From the NCBI GenBank assembly GCA_029864565.1, contig JAOTTD010000017.1, positions 1 through 35,369 on the forward strand: a DNA stretch of 35,369 bases. Direction: 5' to 3'. Source of the DNA: Thermoplasmata archaeon (GTDB lineage Archaea; Thermoplasmatota; Thermoplasmata; UBA10834). Positions within the stretch are counted from its first letter, which is position 1, and each line of letters opens with the position of its first letter. Both the position numbers and the translations under genes were made by a program. The notes beneath the pieces are model-generated. The model saw only the letters and a program-made list of their open reading frames with translations. It ran no database searches and was not told the DNA's origin. Below, piece by piece: positions 831-30,447 of the stretch.

Positions 831-3800
831 ATGGCCAATTCGAGGGCAATTGTGATAATGACAAGTGTATTGCTAGTCATCTCACTGTTTTCTGCAGCTC
901 AGAATGTTGCGGCGTGGGAGAGCATTGATGACGGTTCCATCTCCGAGAGAATTGAAGACTCAGATGGGGATGGGAAGATCAATTCGCTCATCATAGATGT
1001 TCCAATAGTAGGCATCACCTGGCTAGGATATTCGACCTTATACTTGAGAGACTATCTCGAGATTGCTGCGGAACTCTGGAATAGCGATATGACGGAGTAT
1101 GTTAGCCATACGTCCGTGGAGTACGACATAGAAGAGTGGACGATTCTGGAGTCTGCCACAATACCCGTGAGCTTCTCGGGAAGGGACATATCTGCATCGG
1201 GCGTCGAAGGCCCATACCTGGCCATGATAGTGCTCACCCACTTCGTAGTATGGCGAGACTTTCCTGTTATTCCTGTTCAAGCAGAACAGGTTGACTGGGC
1301 AGCCTATACGATAACCGGGGATTACTCATTGTATGATTTCGAAATACCTGAACCATACGAGATGTTGGATTCATCCTACGAGACAATCGATGACGACGGC
1401 GATGGGCTCTGGGATTGGATCAGGGCTCATATGACCATTGATGTCCTCGATACGGAGTTGGTCACTGTGCAGTTGGAGCTGGAACCGGAATTCGGCTCAG
1501 ATGCCTCCATCATATACGGCGAGGAGCACGTGCTGACGGTTGGTGACTCTCAAACGCTGTCAGTCGATATTGACGGTCGCTTGATCAATGGATTCAACCT
1601 GAACGAAAAGAAGTACGCCATACGTGCTTCGATATCGACGACCGATGGATTCGACGCACACGACTGGATCATGACCGACTTCTTCGATGCCACCGATTTC
1701 GAGGATTACCCTGTATCCCTCGAAGGCGCAGTTGGGTGTGAGATGCTCGACGTGAATGATGACGGATTGACTGATTTCTTCAGGATATCGTACAATATCA
1801 CGGTTGACACCACCTCGAAGTACAGGATTCTTACATCCTTGCAGGACCCGAGCGACTATCTCGTGGTATCACCTGAAACCTTTGATGGATACTTGATGGA
1901 GGAGTACGAGGAGACCATTGTTGAGATAATTGACGCCTATTCAATTTACGAAACCGGCTTAGATGGGCCTCTTGATGTCGATATCCTAGAAATCCCCCTC
2001 GCCCATTCGAAATGGCCTGGGTACACAGAGATAACTGGCATTACCCTAGGGAACGGGACCACCGAAGACTTCGACCATGACGAGCTGAATCACCCAGCGC
2101 TGTTATCCATCTCTGGCTTCGTGAAGGACCAGTACGGCGAGGCGATACCGAGCGCCGATATGATGGTCTCAAGCAGCAATGACACGTGGTACTGGTCCGA
2201 AGTATATGTTAGCTGGACGGATGTGAACGGAGAATACACAGCTCTCGGACTCGTCCCTGGACAAGTTACCATACAAGTCGTAGCTGAGGGTTACTTGCCC
2301 CAGGAGATGGAAATTGACAATGTCGAAGAGGACATCTCGGGTGTGAACTTCACTCTTGAGGAGGACGGGCCCAGAGACTCAACGATTTCAGGCACGACTC
2401 TGGATAGGGAATGGAATCCGTTGGCTGATGTCGCTGTAATCCTGTTCATGAAGGACACCGTTCAGAGGTCCGCTCTGCTATACGGAATGACAGTATCGAA
2501 TGCCCTGGGGGAGTACTCGTTCGAAGTCAAAGAAGGCGATTACTTCATTGAGGCAGCGATGATCGACTCCACAGATCCCATGACTCTGGACTACACAGTA
2601 CTCTTGGGCGCTGGGACGGTGACGGTTGCGGAATCCGAAGTGGCACATCTGAATGTCACACTCAACATGACCGCTGACATCGACTCTGACATATACTCCT
2701 GCGATGTCGATCACATCGACCTGTCGTTCGAAGATTGGGAGAAAGGCGCGATGACCATTTCCTGTGCCTTCCCCGAATTGTCAAGTTTCATGCAGTTCGA
2801 ACTCCTGGTTGCGGACTTAGCCATGGGCGATGATGATGGGCTTGTTGACGAGGACGAAATCGAGGGATGGGACTTGAATCTGCAGATGATGGCAATGATG
2901 GATCTCGGCATGCCCCTCACAGCCGCCCAGTCAGGACTGTACTTCCTCGAATCGTTCTGCGTGGATGGAATCGGATATTCCACGCCTTCCGCCGAGGAAC
3001 TCGAATGCACGGGTCCAGACCTAACGGGTTCGGTGTGGGACTTGAGAGAGGATCTGCAAATCACGCTCAGCTTCGATGACATGCAATCGTATTGGGACGT
3101 TCCTGAAGAGGACACTCACAGAATGTACATCGAAGTGGACTATGCCGAAAACGATGGGAGTCCTCCGACGACGATCGACATCGGACCGCCATCGGGGTTC
3201 GTGCTTTTGTCATCAAACGGCCCCGACAACGTCTCCGTAGAGGGCACGAGTCACGTTACCATCATTCCTGGCGAATCCCCGGACTCTGAGAACCTCACCA
3301 GCGTCCTCGTCATGCTCGAGCTCACGAGCGCGACGACCGAAGAAACTGGTTCCATCTGGGGCACTGCAACCCTCCAGGATGAGCTCGACCACTCGGGAGT
3401 ACTTGTCGACCTCCTGAACGCAAACCTCGGTGTTATCAGTTCCGTAACAACGTACTCAACGGGCGAGTATGTGTTCCCCAACCTGGAGCCCGGAGACTAT
3501 CATGTGAGGGCGAGCATGACAGGCTACATTGACTCGTATGGGAGCGTGACCGTCAGCGAAGGCGTCTCATCAGATCTCAATATCGTCCTCTTGCCTGTCG
3601 GAACGGCCGTCGACGATTCGGGCATACAGGGAAGGATCGTCACCGAATCCGGCGCCTCGATTTCGGACGCCACTGTCAACCTATACAATCCATCAGATTC
3701 TGAGACTTCGATGATGACCGCGATTTCAGAATCGGACGGCATGATGGAATTCGAGGAGCTCCAGAGCGGCGAGTACAGGCTCGAAGTGTCCGCGGACGGG

Positions 3801-25172: not shown

Positions 25173-26384
25173 TCATCCCATGTCGAGCTTCATTCCGAGG
25201 GCGGGCTCGGCCACGCTGCAGACGGAGTCACGATTGAAGCCCGCTCGAGCCCAGTATCGCGGGCACAGCCCCAGCGCAAGGCAGGTCTCGTAGTCGCTTG
25301 AGTCGTCGAAAGATTCGCTGAACCCGCCTGATGAGGAGCCGCTCCAAGGCTCCGCAGGTCCGTTGGAAATCAGCACGGCATCGAGCTCGGTCATGTCGAC
25401 TCCGGTCTCGTCTGCCGGGAGGGCGGACACAACCGCCATTGGCTCCGCACCATATCTTGCGCATCGCTTGAGTGCTTCCACGATCTCACGGGCGTCCATC
25501 CTGAGCGACGCCATCCTCTCCACTGAAGGCACGTCGTATACGAGGTAGCCTGGCTCCTTATTATCGAAGGTCATCACCTTGGCGTCTTCATACAGTTTGT
25601 AGTAACTCCTGCACGGGAACGGGCAGGCGTAACAGCTGATGTTTCTATGTAACAGCCCTCTGAAATCGTCTCGGCCCGCGGCTTCTGAAAACGAGGCTAG
25701 GCCGTCGTTCGGCCCCAGCAACGCAATCTGCGAGCGCATCAGCGCCAATGATCTGGCGAGATGTTCCTCAGGGTCGAGCAGCTCGAGTTCCCCCATCCCT
25801 CGGAAGGCGACTGCTGACAAACCCATCCTGCCGAGCTCCGCAGCGGCGCCGACCCTATCCTCCCCGCCCCAGTAGTTCATCGTCAGTTGGGACGCGGCGA
25901 GCCCGTGGTCGCCCCATGGGCCGCCGGCGACGACCTGTATCTTCCTATCACCCTGGTCCGAGCGTATCTTGTCGGTGCGCTCCCACGAGTCACACTTGTG
26001 GATCTCGGGCGACGCGACGAACTCGATGATGCCGTCTCTGATCCACACGTATCCGTCCCCGCTTGCTTTTCCGGTGATCACGACGAAGTCAAAGCCAGTC
26101 AACTTGAGTTCCACGCCCATGAAACCCGTCAGCGGGCACATCCTCGTGGGATTCGATTCGGAGTGCGGAATCCGGATGAAACCGGCGCACGATGCCGGCA
26201 CGAGGCTTCCCGTGAGTATGCCCGATGCCAAGGCGAATCCGGCGCCACCAGCGCTCGCGACAGCGGCGTCTATGGTCGCCATCACACCGAACGAGCTCCG
26301 TGTGTAATCGTCTTGGAGCTCGTGCTCCTGCACCTCACCGGAGGATAGGTCAAGCGTAGCGTATCTCCCGTTCACGAGGTGCAT
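25173..26384 (-). CDS. Short, divergent aldehyde:ferredoxin oxidoreductase homologue
   Basis: The AOR family are tungsto- or molybdopterin enzymes that oxidise aldehydes with ferredoxin. The first domain is recognisable (ASGILTGSLVPASCAGFIRI, CPLTGFMGVELKLTGFDFVV), as is DRVGAAAELGRMGLSAVAFR. All four cubane ligands are present: Cys251, 254 and 258 (CYACPFPC) and Cys374 (LGLCPRYW). The protein is only 403 residues against roughly 600 or more in the family. The Cys258-Cys374 gap is 116 residues against roughly 200 in Pyrococcus AOR, and the usual N-terminal GGRGL segment is not obvious. It may be a compact enzyme of altered specificity or a domain-reduced homologue. GGAGG before the ATG at 26384 lies inside the end of the ferredoxin-like gene, so translation is coupled. 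Confidence 0.82.
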   Translation of the reverse strand: MHLVNGRYATLDLSSGEVQEHELQDDYTRSSFGVMATIDAAVASAGGAGFALASGILTGSLVPASCAGFIRIPHSESNPTRMCPLTGFMGVELKLTGFDFVVITGKASGDGYVWIRDGIIEFVASPEIHKCDSWERTDKIRSDQGDRKIQVVAGGPWGDHGLAASQLTMNYWGGEDRVGAAAELGRMGLSAVAFRGMGELELLDPEEHLARSLALMRSQIALLGPNDGLASFSEAAGRDDFRGLLHRNISCYACPFPCRSYYKLYEDAKVMTFDNKEPGYLVYDVPSVERMASLRMDAREIVEALKRCARYGAEPMAVVSALPADETGVDMTELDAVLISNGPAEPWSGSSSGGFSESFDDSSDYETCLALGLCPRYWARAGFNRDSVCSVAEPALGMKLDMG

Positions 26385-26385
26385 C

Positions 26386-26718
26386 TCAATCCTCCACGGC
26401 TATACAGCCAGTCGGGCATATCTTGGCGCACTTCGGGTCGCCATCACACAGGTTGCAGGGCTCTCTCAAGAGTATGGGTTTCGCCCCCGGGCCGCTCGCG
26501 TCAGAAGCCGGCTGGTCCGAGGTCACGCCTTCCGGCCGGACGAAAACCAGCCCCTTCGAAGCGCGCTTAAGCACGAGGCCGAAGTAGTCCGCCTTGTCCT
26601 CAGAATGCAGGATCACGCTCGACGACATCGGCGTGAGCACGCCGTCCCTCTGTAGGCTGCACACCGTCTCGCACAAACCGCAGGCCAAGCAAGCCAACGG
26701 TTCGAAGTGCAGACGCAT
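26386..26718 (-). CDS. Two-cluster [4Fe-4S] ferredoxin-like electron-transfer subunit
   Basis: The 110-residue protein has two four-cysteine motifs 68 residues apart: CLACGLCETVC (Cys10, 13, 16, 20) and CNLCDGDPKCAKICP (Cys88, 91, 97, 101). The latter is of the CxxC-x5-CxxxCP kind found in electron-transfer partners of molybdo- and tungsto-enzymes. The insert carries an RPEG-x(5)-QPASDASG linker. It lies 2 nt before the AOR homologue and 21 nt after pyrI, which indicates that it delivers or accepts electrons for the AOR-like protein and is expressed with pyrimidine genes. The partner assignment is an inference from position. Confidence 0.87.
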   Translation of the reverse strand: MRLHFEPLACLACGLCETVCSLQRDGVLTPMSSSVILHSEDKADYFGLVLKRASKGLVFVRPEGVTSDQPASDASGPGAKPILLREPCNLCDGDPKCAKICPTGCIAVED

Positions 26719-28187: not shown

Positions 28188-28547
28188 TCAGACGAGGTCG
28201 AAATCGTCTATCGCAGACTTCATATTGTCGATCCAATCGTCTGCGCACTTCTTGAGCTTCTGCCGCAGCTGAGACGGAGGCACTGCGGTGTAAATGTGAT
28301 AATATCCACCCCGGTCGATGTTCTTCGTCTCTCTGAAGGCGAGGCCCGCCCCAACGAGCCTCTGAAGCGCCCTGTATATTGTGCTGCGGTCCTTCTTCAT
28401 AACCGGGACGAGGTCGTCCGCCCTGAGAGAGCCCTTTTCAACGAGCTTTCTGTATATGACAATCTCGAAATCCGAGAGCCCGTACATGCATTTGACGATG
28501 TCCCTGCATGTCGCCTGGCCCGAGAGTATCTTCTGAGGTTCGACCAT
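28188..28547 (-). CDS. Winged-helix transcriptional regulator (TrmB-like) with paired cysteines
   Basis: The 119-residue protein has a short N-terminal segment with Cys14 and Cys20 (ATCRDIVKCMYGLSDFE). A winged helix-turn-helix follows (YRKLVEKGSLRADDLVPVMK, DRSTIYRALQRLVGAGLAFR), then a wing with GGYYHIYTAVPP and a C-terminal helix containing Cys101. TrmB/MarR-type DNA binding is clear from the pattern; a ligand domain is absent. The frame is open to 28658, but a TATA box (28566-28573) lies about 23 nt before the ATG at 28547, so it starts there and is leaderless. It is divergent from the tusA-dsr cluster, and a palindrome lies between them. Redox or persulfide sensing by the cysteines is speculation. 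Confidence 0.83.
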   Translation of the reverse strand: MVEPQKILSGQATCRDIVKCMYGLSDFEIVIYRKLVEKGSLRADDLVPVMKKDRSTIYRALQRLVGAGLAFRETKNIDRGGYYHIYTAVPPSQLRQKLKKCADDWIDNMKSAIDDFDLV

Positions 28548-28565
28548 ATTGCACGCTATTGCCAG

Positions 28566-28634
28566 TTTTATACTTAACCGTTTTGACAAGTGCTCGGGAG
28601 CACGGAAGGCGCAGCACGTGAGAATGTTTATTAG
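28566..28634. promoter_or_regulatory. Divergent promoters of the regulator and the sulfur-relay cluster
   Basis: Reverse-strand GTATAAAAC (28566-28573) serves the regulator, about 23 nt before its ATG. Forward GTTTATTAG (28626-28634) serves tusA, about 24 nt before its ATG. Both imply leaderless transcripts. The 50 nt between the boxes contains the palindrome at 28590-28603. Confidence 0.6.
28590..28603. promoter_or_regulatory. Perfect palindrome, candidate operator
   Basis: GTGCTC-GG-GAGCAC has six perfectly complementary bases on each side of a 2-bp centre. It lies midway between the two divergent TATA boxes, the expected place for a dimeric winged-helix protein to control both its own gene and the tusA-dsr cluster. 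A related half-site, AGCACG, recurs at 28613-28618. Confidence 0.55.
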
Positions 28635-28652
28635 GCGAGAGGCCAATCGCCT
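28633..28652. repeat. Inverted repeat at the tusA start
   Basis: AGGCGA (28633-28638) and TCGCCT (28647-28652) form a perfect 6-bp inverted repeat with an 8-nt spacer, ending at the base before the tusA ATG. If tusA is leaderless the repeat spans the transcription start, so it would act as DNA (a second operator) rather than as an RNA hairpin. Confidence 0.45.
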
Positions 28653-28916
28653 ATGCACGGTAGTGACAATACCGCAGGAGAGATACCTTTGGACAAGGAT
28701 GCGACACTAGACGCGAGAGGTCTGATGTGCCCGATGCCGATCGTGCAGCTAGCCAAGAAAGTGAAGGAGATGAACTCAGGGCAGGTCCTAGAGCTTCTGG
28801 CGGACGACGTGGGGTCGAAAGAAGACGTCCCGGCATGGACGAGCAGGACAGGAAACCAGCTGCTGGGCATGGAAGAGGAAGGCAAGGCCTTCAAATTCTA
28901 CATCAAGATTAAGTGA
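28653..28916 (+). CDS. tusA: TusA-family sulfur carrier protein
   Basis: TusA proteins carry a persulfide on a single conserved cysteine and pass it to DsrE-type acceptors or biosynthetic enzymes. The 87-residue protein has the signature LDARGLMCPMPIVQLAKKVK (Cys26 in CPxP), then GQVLELLADDVGSKEDVPAW and the C-terminal EGKAFKFYIKIK. A 12-residue polar N-terminal extension precedes the domain. The ATG at 28653 is about 24 nt from a TATA box and appears leaderless. It is first of five co-directional genes whose products all fit a sulfur relay. Confidence 0.93.
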   Translation: MHGSDNTAGEIPLDKDATLDARGLMCPMPIVQLAKKVKEMNSGQVLELLADDVGSKEDVPAWTSRTGNQLLGMEEEGKAFKFYIKIK

Positions 28917-28949
28917 GAGCACATACTGGGTGACAATGGAGGCGAAGAT

Positions 28950-29354
28950 ATGGCAGACAAGTTCGTGATGGTGGTAAGCGAGGGCAGTTTCGACAAGGCG
29001 ATGATGCCCCTTATTATGGGAACAACAGCGGCGAGCATGGGCATGGAAGTGCACGTCTTCTACACCTTCTTCGGACTAAAGCTCCTGAAGAAGGGCGTGC
29101 GGCCGAAGCTCAAGGGAATGATGAGCCTGTTCACCGGGATGATCGAGAAGAAGATGAAGAAGCTGAATATTCCGGGGTACGACGAAATGATGCAGCAGGC
29201 GAAGGACCTCGGCGTCAACTTCTACGCGTGCAGCACATCGATGGCGCTGATGGGCGTCGAGCAGAGCGACCTTGCCGACGGCGTCAAGGTGCTAGGAGCG
29301 TCCGCGTTCCTGAACATAGCGGCGGACTCGAAGGTGCAACTGTTCATCGGATGA
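28950..29354 (+). CDS. DsrE2-like sulfur carrier protein
   Basis: The 134-residue protein matches the DsrE2 (DsrE/F-like) family: FVMVVSEGSFDKAMMPLIMG, then AASMGMEVHVFYTFFGLKLL and a conserved cysteine in FYACSTSMAL (Cys94). A basic insert with many Met and Lys residues (about 46-72) is characteristic. DsrE2 proteins are known to exchange sulfur with TusA in sulfur-metabolising prokaryotes. The gene follows tusA by 33 nt, with GGAGGCGA near the start. It could be peripherally membrane-bound. Confidence 0.87.
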   Translation: MADKFVMVVSEGSFDKAMMPLIMGTTAASMGMEVHVFYTFFGLKLLKKGVRPKLKGMMSLFTGMIEKKMKKLNIPGYDEMMQQAKDLGVNFYACSTSMALMGVEQSDLADGVKVLGASAFLNIAADSKVQLFIG

Positions 29355-29362
29355 GGGATTGA

Positions 29363-29665
29363 ATGGTCAAGACCGCATTCATAGTGATTAGGTCACCGCA
29401 GGAGCTAGAATTCACGGAGACTATTCGTCGATTGGCTCAGCAAGATGACGCAAGCGTCATCCTCTTCGAGGACGGGGTGTACAACGCACTCCAGAAGGAG
29501 AGAGCGCAACAGCTCAATGAGGTCGCGGCCGAGGTCATGGTCGCGGTGGACGACCTTGAAGCAAGGGGGTTCTCCGGATCGGATCTCAAGGCTGGGAAGA
29601 CGGCGGACTATGACGACATCGTCGAGATGATTATGGAGCGGACCGACCGAACGGTCACCGTCTGA
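29363..29665 (+). CDS. DsrH/TusB-like protein without cysteine
   Basis: The 100-residue protein has the small Rossmann-like fold pattern of DsrH/TusB: VKTAFIVIRSPQELEF, then ASVILFEDGVYNALQ, VMVAVDDLEARGFSG and YDDIVEMIMER. It has no cysteine and so cannot carry a persulfide itself. In DsrEFH and TusBCD the H/B subunit is structural or accessory in some members. It is a paralogue of 30044-30400 (shared EDGVYNA and DLE-RG segments). It starts 8 nt after the DsrE2 gene with GAGGGATTGA upstream. Confidence 0.8.
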   Translation: MVKTAFIVIRSPQELEFTETIRRLAQQDDASVILFEDGVYNALQKERAQQLNEVAAEVMVAVDDLEARGFSGSDLKAGKTADYDDIVEMIMERTDRTVTV

Positions 29666-29676
29666 GGTGGTGCGCA

Positions 29677-30036
29677 ATGGCCAAGACGATGACGATCATC
29701 TGGAGGTCTGGATCGATGATGGCCATGGATGTCAACGTGGCGACGAAGCTCGCGGCGGCGGCGCTCAAGAAGGGCTACATGGTGAAGATGTTCGGCTACG
29801 GAGAGGGCATAACCGCTGTGAAGAAAGGACAGGCCCCCAAGAGATTTCCGAACGTCGGGGATGATCTCGTGGAACTCGCGGAGGCTGGTGCTGAAATCTC
29901 CCTGTGCGAGACGTGCTACGCTGCGAGGGGATTTCACAGGGGCGAGGAAATCGAGGGAGTGAAGATCGGGAGCCTGACAAACAACCTGTTCCGATTTGTA
30001 TCCGAATCCGACCGGCTGGTGACAATAGCGAGGTGA
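29677..30036 (+). CDS. DsrE-like sulfur transferase subunit with CxxC
   Basis: The 119-residue protein fits the DsrE/TusD branch: MTIIWRSGSMMAMDVNVATK, KKGYMVKMFGYGEGITAVKK and the active-site region ISLCETCYAARGF (Cys77 and Cys80), followed by the C-terminal TNNLFRFVSESDRLVTI. DsrE and TusD carry one catalytic cysteine at this position; the CxxC here adds a second. It starts 11 nt after the preceding gene with GAGGTGGTG upstream. It probably forms a heteromer with one of the neighbouring cysteine-free subunits. Confidence 0.86.
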   Translation: MAKTMTIIWRSGSMMAMDVNVATKLAAAALKKGYMVKMFGYGEGITAVKKGQAPKRFPNVGDDLVELAEAGAEISLCETCYAARGFHRGEEIEGVKIGSLTNNLFRFVSESDRLVTIAR

Positions 30037-30043
30037 TTAGGCC

Positions 30044-30400
30044 ATGGCAGATTCGATGCTAGTAATAGTGACCAAGCCTCCTTATGGCTTAGAGGATGCG
30101 TTCGCCGGGTTGAGGCTGGCGCTCGCAATGAGTGTGAACGGCATGAAGGTCTCGGTCGTCGAGATCGAGGACGGGGTGTACAACGCCGTCGCTGGGCAGA
30201 AGCCGGAAGCTGTGGGGATGCCCTCGAACGTGGACGCTACCACCGAGCTGTACGACTTCGATGTGTCCGTCTACGTCGTCAAGGAGGATCTTGAGCAGAG
30301 AGGCATCGAGGAGTCGTCCTTGGTCGACGGAGTCAAGACCATAAGCAAGGACGACCTCAGAGACCTCTTGGCGGAGCACGACGTGACAACGACGTTCTGA
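30044..30400 (+). CDS. DsrH/DsrF-like protein without cysteine (second copy)
   Basis: The 118-residue protein starts SMLVIVTKPPYGLEDAFAGL, followed by RLALAMSVNGMKVSVVEIED, a DsrF-like opening. It ends VVKEDLEQRGIEESSLVDGV and SKDDLRDLLAE, a DsrH-like ending. EDGVYNAV matches EDGVYNAL of 29363-29665. No cysteine is present. It begins 7 nt after the CxxC DsrE gene and is the last gene of the cluster; archaeosine synthase follows after a separate promoter. Assignment between DsrF- and DsrH-like is uncertain. Confidence 0.8.
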   Translation: MADSMLVIVTKPPYGLEDAFAGLRLALAMSVNGMKVSVVEIEDGVYNAVAGQKPEAVGMPSNVDATTELYDFDVSVYVVKEDLEQRGIEESSLVDGVKTISKDDLRDLLAEHDVTTTF

Positions 30401-30439: not shown

Positions 30440-30447
30440 TTTTATAG
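30440..30447 (+). promoter_or_regulatory. arcS promoter
   Basis: CATTTTATAGCC is centred about 25 nt before the arcS GTG. This indicates a separate, leaderless transcript rather than read-through from the dsr cluster. Confidence 0.55.

Follow-up and report, generated by a model that had tools for sequence, protein, structure and literature searches.

The TusA-TusBCD-TusE system of Escherichia coli is a sulfur relay for tRNA that leads to MnmA. DsrEFH proteins have been described as type I, exemplified by Allochromatium vinosum, and as type II, known from cable bacteria and sulfate reducers, with some archaeal members that adjoin dsrMK or qmoAB (PMC13293266, a 2026 paper). Persulfide transfer through the DsrE-type cysteines Cys78/Cys67 is established in bacteria (PMC3397948, PMC13293266). 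In the archaeon Metallosphaera cuprina, a DsrE3A-DsrE2B-TusA cluster is linked to Hdr-like genes (PMC4175335). Here, we describe a further archaeal locus, carried by a 35,369-nucleotide (nt) contig of a Thermoplasmata archaeon (JAOTTD010000017.1; "the window" hereafter denotes this whole stretch). Five relay genes lie on one strand, next to a divergent gene for a small winged-helix-turn-helix (wHTH) regulator. Judged by sequence, they form a TusA-DsrE2-TusBCD/DsrEFH-like relay, the D subunit of which departs from TusD toward YchN. We favour, with moderate confidence, the view that this would be a dedicated, repressor-controlled archaeal sulfur-relay operon, responsive to sulfane sulfur, in which sulfur would pass from TusA through the D subunit to an acceptor.

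Subunits and cysteines of the relay

A preliminary description, made from the DNA letters, had placed the five open reading frames (ORFs) on one strand with gaps of 7-33 nt beside a divergent winged-helix gene. All were found as described; the longest tusA frame covers 28653-28916, and the successive spacings are 33, 8, 11 and 7 nt. Its assignment of the products to a sulfur relay also stands, but the labels "DsrH-like", "CxxC DsrE-like" and "second DsrH/F-like" are better replaced by the B, D and C positions of a TusBCD/DsrEFH-type complex. Indeed, the three co-encoded subunit types of such a set (B/H, C/F and D/E) are all found. In the NCBIfam scan, the H/B-type subunit reaches 59.5 bits with the TusB model TIGR03011 (cut-off 49.2), while the C/F-type subunit reaches 64.5 bits with the TusC model TIGR03010, under the cut-off of 94. 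The CxxC protein has no match to the TusD model TIGR03012 at 1e-3, and the D subunits of relatives score 26-36 bits with it, short of the cut-off of 89. The DsrE2-like protein scores 86.9 bits with the DsrE2 equivalog NF047629 (cut-off 210, not reached) and, by its single cysteine, is classed as DsrE2B-like.

Aligning the subunits with TusB, TusC and TusD of E. coli places Cys77 of the CxxC protein on the catalytic Cys78 of TusD. Both Cys77 and Cys80 are invariant (n=22 sequences), as are the active cysteine of TusA (43/43) and the cysteine of the DsrE2-like protein (49/49). The TusB-like and TusC-like subunits of the window contain no cysteine. By sequence, the nearest solved relatives of the CxxC protein are YchN, which has the same CxxC, and then DsrE. 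A fold search with its confidently predicted model (predicted local distance difference test, pLDDT, 88) returned YchN 1jx7 first, with DsrE 2hy5_A among the best.

The locus resembles the E. coli relay in its TusA and its B, C and D subunits, with Cys77 at the TusD Cys78 position, and in having a regulator gene close by (yheO adjoins tusDCB in E. coli). It departs from that relay by the extra DsrE2, the order B-D-C, the CxxC of a D subunit scoring below the TusD model, the lack of TusE, the weakness of the MnmA matches, the archaeal operator-like sites and an unrelated wHTH regulator. With DsrEFH type I, it shares the E, F and H families, the position of the active cysteine and the TusA partner. 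However, the cysteine-free H subunit of the window offers no equivalent of DsrH-Cys20, a residue that A. vinosum requires in vivo (PMC3397948), and neither DsrC (25 genomes searched) nor DsrAB (six genomes) accompanies the set. As in type II, tusA is co-encoded, the active cysteine of DsrE is conserved and archaea are among the bearers; type II proteins are described as missed by sequence-based tools (PMC13293266), whereas the H- and F-type subunits were recognised here. M. cuprina likewise has an archaeal TusA-DsrE2 pair with a single-cysteine DsrE2, but its cluster is described without a TusBCD set (PMC4175335).

Additional copies of relay genes were seen at three loci (loci and genomes are numbered L and G). 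Two methanogen loci contain an additional DsrE2-like gene between tusA and dsrE2 (L075 1244-1603, L081 6881-7240). Genome G000 holds, in L052 (contig 72, 1-667), a tusA-dsrE pair of its own: a second TusA gene for that genome (371-667, minus strand) and after it a DsrE2-like gene that the end of the contig truncates.

Conservation of the unit and its surroundings

Gene order and divergent regulator are kept in every genome of the window's family that has the locus, as far as the contig extends; the two family genomes without a match to the D-subunit gene are the least complete ones (65% and 55%). A scan of GTDB representative genomes yielded 45 loci; every one belongs to a Thermoplasmata-type record, and many of these records are named Methanomassiliicoccales. 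A match (E <= 1e-15) was found in 47/300 genomes drawn from the class. Nearly all family and Methanomassiliicoccales loci have the order regulator, divergent, then tusA-dsrE2-tusB-tusD-tusC. The window's family, methanogens of the Methanomassiliicoccales and a third lineage in which the flanks differ (L088/L089) share the unit together with its divergent regulator. The preliminary description had read the locus as a sulfur-relay cluster with a dedicated regulator and had proposed comparing gene order in relatives; that comparison did not refute it, as almost all relatives looked at have the order and the divergent regulator, beyond chance.

In most loci, pyrBI and arcS adjoin the unit and appear as old neighbours. 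In L088 and L089, the six genes lie amid other genes and neither pyrBI nor arcS adjoins them; arcS does not adjoin the unit in L092-L096 either. The regulator stays in the cluster even when the order is shuffled: in L024 (G030, 1121-3279), tusB-tusD-tusC-tusA-dsrE2-regulator all lie on one strand. Four loci (L092, L093, L094 and L096) keep the five genes without an adjacent regulator. Distance correlations are 0.75-0.90 among the six proteins and 0.80-0.90 between regulator and relay proteins (host phylogeny not controlled), which fits one co-inherited unit.

The five relay genes likely form a single predicted transcription unit that leaves out arcS, as arcS has its own conserved TATA-like box; the arcS transcript is likely leaderless. 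This promoter, together with the arrangement in L088/L089, led us to reject arcS and pyrBI as functional partners. The Hdr genes 3' of the unit in L088/L089 were likewise rejected as operon partners, because other genes or a gap intervene and only one genus is concerned. Assigned by eye from motifs, they comprise HdrC-, HdrB-, HdrA/NuoE-, NuoF- and NuoG-like genes in L089 (9361-15913) and similar HdrC/HdrB/HdrA-like genes in L088 (11185-13789).

Operator-like sites and the cysteine-rich regulator

In the window's family, a near-palindrome, TTGCAC-GGTW-GTGCAA, is conserved between the TATA-like box and the start codon of both divergent genes. Its exact family pattern matched at both sites in 8/8 family genomes and gave zero matches in a reversed control. 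A single stray exact match was found elsewhere in the eight genomes searched (G004 contig 11, 421197-421211), and the chance expectation for the window is 0.12 matches with one mismatch allowed. In methanogens, the counterpart of the tusA-proximal site is TTGCACAACCGTGCAAAACCG, a single copy before tusA. In 8/13 other searched genomes, this form is found a single time, at the locus; in the remaining 5/13, two of which are without the operon, no site was found within one mismatch. The 18 methanogen loci with a regulator match it with 0-2 mismatches, and in the four regulator-less loci the best matches lie in the background range of 4-8 mismatches. The 5-mismatch match of the regulator-less L096 falls at the expected position and may be a decayed remnant. 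Within the regulator promoter, conservation of ACTTAACCGTT extends from the family to L088/L089.

As the sites fall after the TATA box and before the start codon, they suggest repression; for site 1, autoregulation is predicted. The regulator ORF starts at ATG 28547; a longer GTG frame reaches 28658, but this extension was rejected because family proteins align from the ATG. Cys14 and Cys20 are present in 37/37 regulator sequences and Cys101 in 35/37. The protein scores 62.9 bits (cut-off 80) and 48.2 bits (cut-off 90) with the NCBIfam Sta1/Lrs14 models, under the cut-off in both cases. Its nearest solved chains by sequence and fold are 3r0a, ST1889 and AbfR2, with 3r0a and AbfR2 nearest in fold. 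Near-unique sites and conserved cysteines together predict that the regulator is probably a dedicated, autoregulating, thiol-switched repressor.

Thiol sensing is proposed by likeness to SqrR/SoxR-type and SurR-type switches. SqrR, BigR, SoxR and sHdrR (PMC12423496), as well as SurR and MsvR (PMC7278568), are small DNA-binding regulators with conserved cysteines, found near sulfur or redox genes, in which thiol chemistry alters DNA binding. Unlike them, the present regulator is TrmB/Sta1/Lrs14-like and its cysteine positions are unrelated to theirs. The conserved cysteines of the regulator and the conserved near-palindrome at both divergent genes are new here. None of the titles and abstracts brought up by a literature search describes this operon, though an earlier mention may stand in the full texts. 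With the regulator and its nearly unique site, the idea of a sulfane-sulfur switch in this archaeal regulator family can be tested directly.

Translation of tusA probably begins at TTG 28689, just after a GGAGAG Shine-Dalgarno-like sequence. ATG 28653 was rejected: it lies inside the conserved element, L060 has it in another frame, and several relatives have no ATG there. With the TTG start, TusA of the window has 75 residues and its active cysteine is at position 14. The cysteine that the preliminary description had called Cys26 is hence the active one, under another number. Overall, what that description observed is confirmed and its interpretation holds in part; it under-described the TusB-D-C/DsrEFH set and the operator-like element with its cysteine-rich regulator, and missed the occurrence in methanogens.

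A methyltransferase gene with paired cysteines, by eye resembling arsenite methyltransferase, abuts the regulator gene in L089 (5622-6476).

Table 1 Features of the relay locus (positions in the window; a dot marks elements given without strand)
Feature	Position	Strand	Remarks
Divergent winged-helix regulator, TrmB/Sta1/Lrs14-like	28188..28547	-	119 amino acids; PF01978 TrmB 2.6e-15
Operator-like site 1 (TTGCACGCTATTGCCA)	28549..28564	.	Between regulator TATA-like box and ATG; conservation across 15 family loci
Regulator promoter element, TATA-like (CGGTTAAGTATAAAA on the minus strand)	28565..28580	-	Putative role
TATA-like box of tusA promoter (GTTTATTA)	28626..28633	+	Conserved in alignment; putative role
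Operator-like site 2 (TATGCACGGTAGTGACAATACCG)	28652..28674	.	Upstream of tusA, at predicted transcription start
Shine-Dalgarno-like CAGGAGAG	28675..28682	+	For tusA TTG start
tusA, persulfide carrier, CPMP motif	28689..28916	+	Probable TTG start (longest ATG ORF from 28653); PF01206 8.5e-26
DsrE2-like (DsrE2B-like), one conserved Cys (ACSTSM)	28950..29354	+	PF13686 (DrsE_2) 2e-34
tusB/dsrH-like subunit, no cysteine	29363..29665	+	PF04077 DsrH; TIGR03011 over cut-off
tusD/dsrE-position subunit, CxxC (Cys77, Cys80)	29677..30036	+	PF02635 DsrE 1.5e-12
tusC/dsrF-like subunit, no cysteine	30044..30400	+	PF02635 2.1e-18; TIGR03010 8e-18
arcS TATA-like box, downstream boundary of the operon	30440..30446	+	TTTTATA or similar in most of the aligned tusC-arcS gaps (13 family loci)

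Proposed relay and alternative explanations

In the mechanism that we favour, the CPMP cysteine of TusA would take a persulfide; the probable source is the genome's cysteine desulfurase of the NifS/IscS type, or else some other supply of sulfane sulfur. TusA would then pass the sulfur to Cys77 of the TusD-position subunit, within a predicted TusBCD/DsrEFH-like complex with the cysteine-free TusB and TusC, and the extra Cys80 may serve to free the sulfur or, by forming a disulfide, to shield the site. By analogy, DsrE2 would assist the relay. The predicted direction of transfer ends at an acceptor that would be neither TusE/DsrC nor MnmA as known. The wHTH protein would bind the two sites and repress both tusA and its own gene; it would leave the DNA on persulfidation or oxidation of its conserved cysteines, and the relay would thus be made as sulfane sulfur, the putative inducer, rises.

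A NifS-type cysteine desulfurase is encoded elsewhere in the genome (TIGR03402, 543 bits, over cut-off). In G000 contig 52 (L175, 1465-4025), NifS-type and SufS-like cysteine desulfurase genes stand side by side, divergently.

Several observations weigh against the favoured mechanism. First, its acceptor is missing: DsrC/TusE (PF04358) is absent (0/25 genomes), and MnmA (PF03054) gave weak matches only. Second, the DsrE2B protein from M. cuprina failed to bind sulfur in vitro (PMC4175335). Third, the TusD-position protein is closer to YchN than to TusD and could form a homo-oligomer instead. Fourth, Cys20 of the regulator also occurs in 3r0a, and equivalents of both Cys20 and Cys101 in ST1889. 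Part of the cysteine set may hence be superfamily heritage and not necessarily a switch, and only Cys14 looks particular to this regulator group; the regulator does have the invariant cysteine pair of sulfane-sulfur-responsive repressors, but this feature is not specific, as ST1889 shares cysteines. Finally, part of the co-divergence of the six proteins reflects shared host phylogeny.

MnmA was rejected as the acceptor, its matches being mostly short PP-loop fragments. NIR_SIR (PF01077; DsrAB-type) had no match in six searched genomes of the window's family, in keeping with the earlier remark that no DsrAB/DsrC-type gene is nearby and no acceptor visible. Hence, neither the E. coli tRNA route nor the Dsr pathway as known explains the unit. 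MCR is absent from the window's family and the L088/L089 lineage and present in the methanogens, so that the unit tracks neither methanogenesis nor the known Dsr pathway. The roles offered in the preliminary description are thereby narrowed, the E. coli TusE-MnmA route lacking its parts. DsrEFH genes have been read as sulfur-oxidation markers (PMC13293266); an archaeal set without DsrAB and DsrC, found also in methanogens, warns against such a reading.

A specific version of the favoured explanation names the acceptor: the relay would serve tRNA thiolation or thiocofactor synthesis, with NcsA/SAMP or ThiI replacing TusE-MnmA and the regulator tuning it to sulfur supply. We regard this as possible but doubtful. 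It would accord with the role of E. coli TusBCD in a tRNA relay, with the NifS-type desulfurase and with the tRNA-modification gene arcS downstream in most loci. The intermediate carriers of archaeal thiolation have been raised as a question (PMC5372739), for which the operon is a concrete candidate. Yet DsrC/TusE and a convincing MnmA are lacking; arcS makes archaeosine, has its own promoter and leaves the unit at the loci named above. Moreover, tRNA thiolation is widespread in archaea, whereas the unit is found in under a sixth of the sampled class members.

That the operon detoxifies or buffers sulfane sulfur or oxidised thiols, with the CxxC protein mainly reducing or storing persulfides, appears unlikely. 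The invariant Cys80 beside the active cysteine, the YchN likeness, the dedicated cysteine-rich regulator and the outcome of the DsrC/TusE and MnmA searches would suit this role. A full TusA-TusBCD set nevertheless seems beyond the needs of a buffer, and the conserved neighbourhood showed no partner of the peroxiredoxin or reductase type.

Still less probable is a part in dissimilatory sulfur metabolism (oxidation, disproportionation or polysulfide reduction), in which the operon would feed an Hdr-type enzyme. In favour of this, tusA-dsrE2 is found alongside Hdr-like clusters of Sulfolobales and other groups (PMC4175335), both DsrEFH types are markers of Dsr pathways (PMC13293266), three family genomes have 20-26 matches each to the CCG (HdrB/D-type) domain, and hdrC-hdrB-like genes lie downstream in L088/L089. 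But the latter are apart from the unit, the two CCG proteins of about 300 amino acids in G006 are far from each other, unlike an sHdr cluster, NIR_SIR and DsrC matches are wanting, and the same operon occurs in MCR-bearing methanogens.

That the regulator is global or unrelated and merely adjoins the operon is very improbable: synteny alone is weak, as pyrBI and arcS are conserved neighbours too, but the regulator stays with the unit despite different flanks or shuffled order, and the site is practically confined to this locus and absent together with the adjacent regulator.

The favoured operon might also represent a separate archaeal DsrEFH-type class, with a YchN-like CxxC catalytic subunit, a thiol-switched TrmB/Sta1-like repressor of essentially one operon and a novel acceptor, in methanogens and non-methanogens alike; we put this forward tentatively.

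Elsewhere in the window (25173-26718), a protein of 403 amino acids with only the N-domain of AFOR adjoins a ferredoxin-like protein, an arrangement kept in the window's family. The AFOR-like protein has only 45-56% identity, below its neighbours, and the two proteins were not found at the G054 locus.

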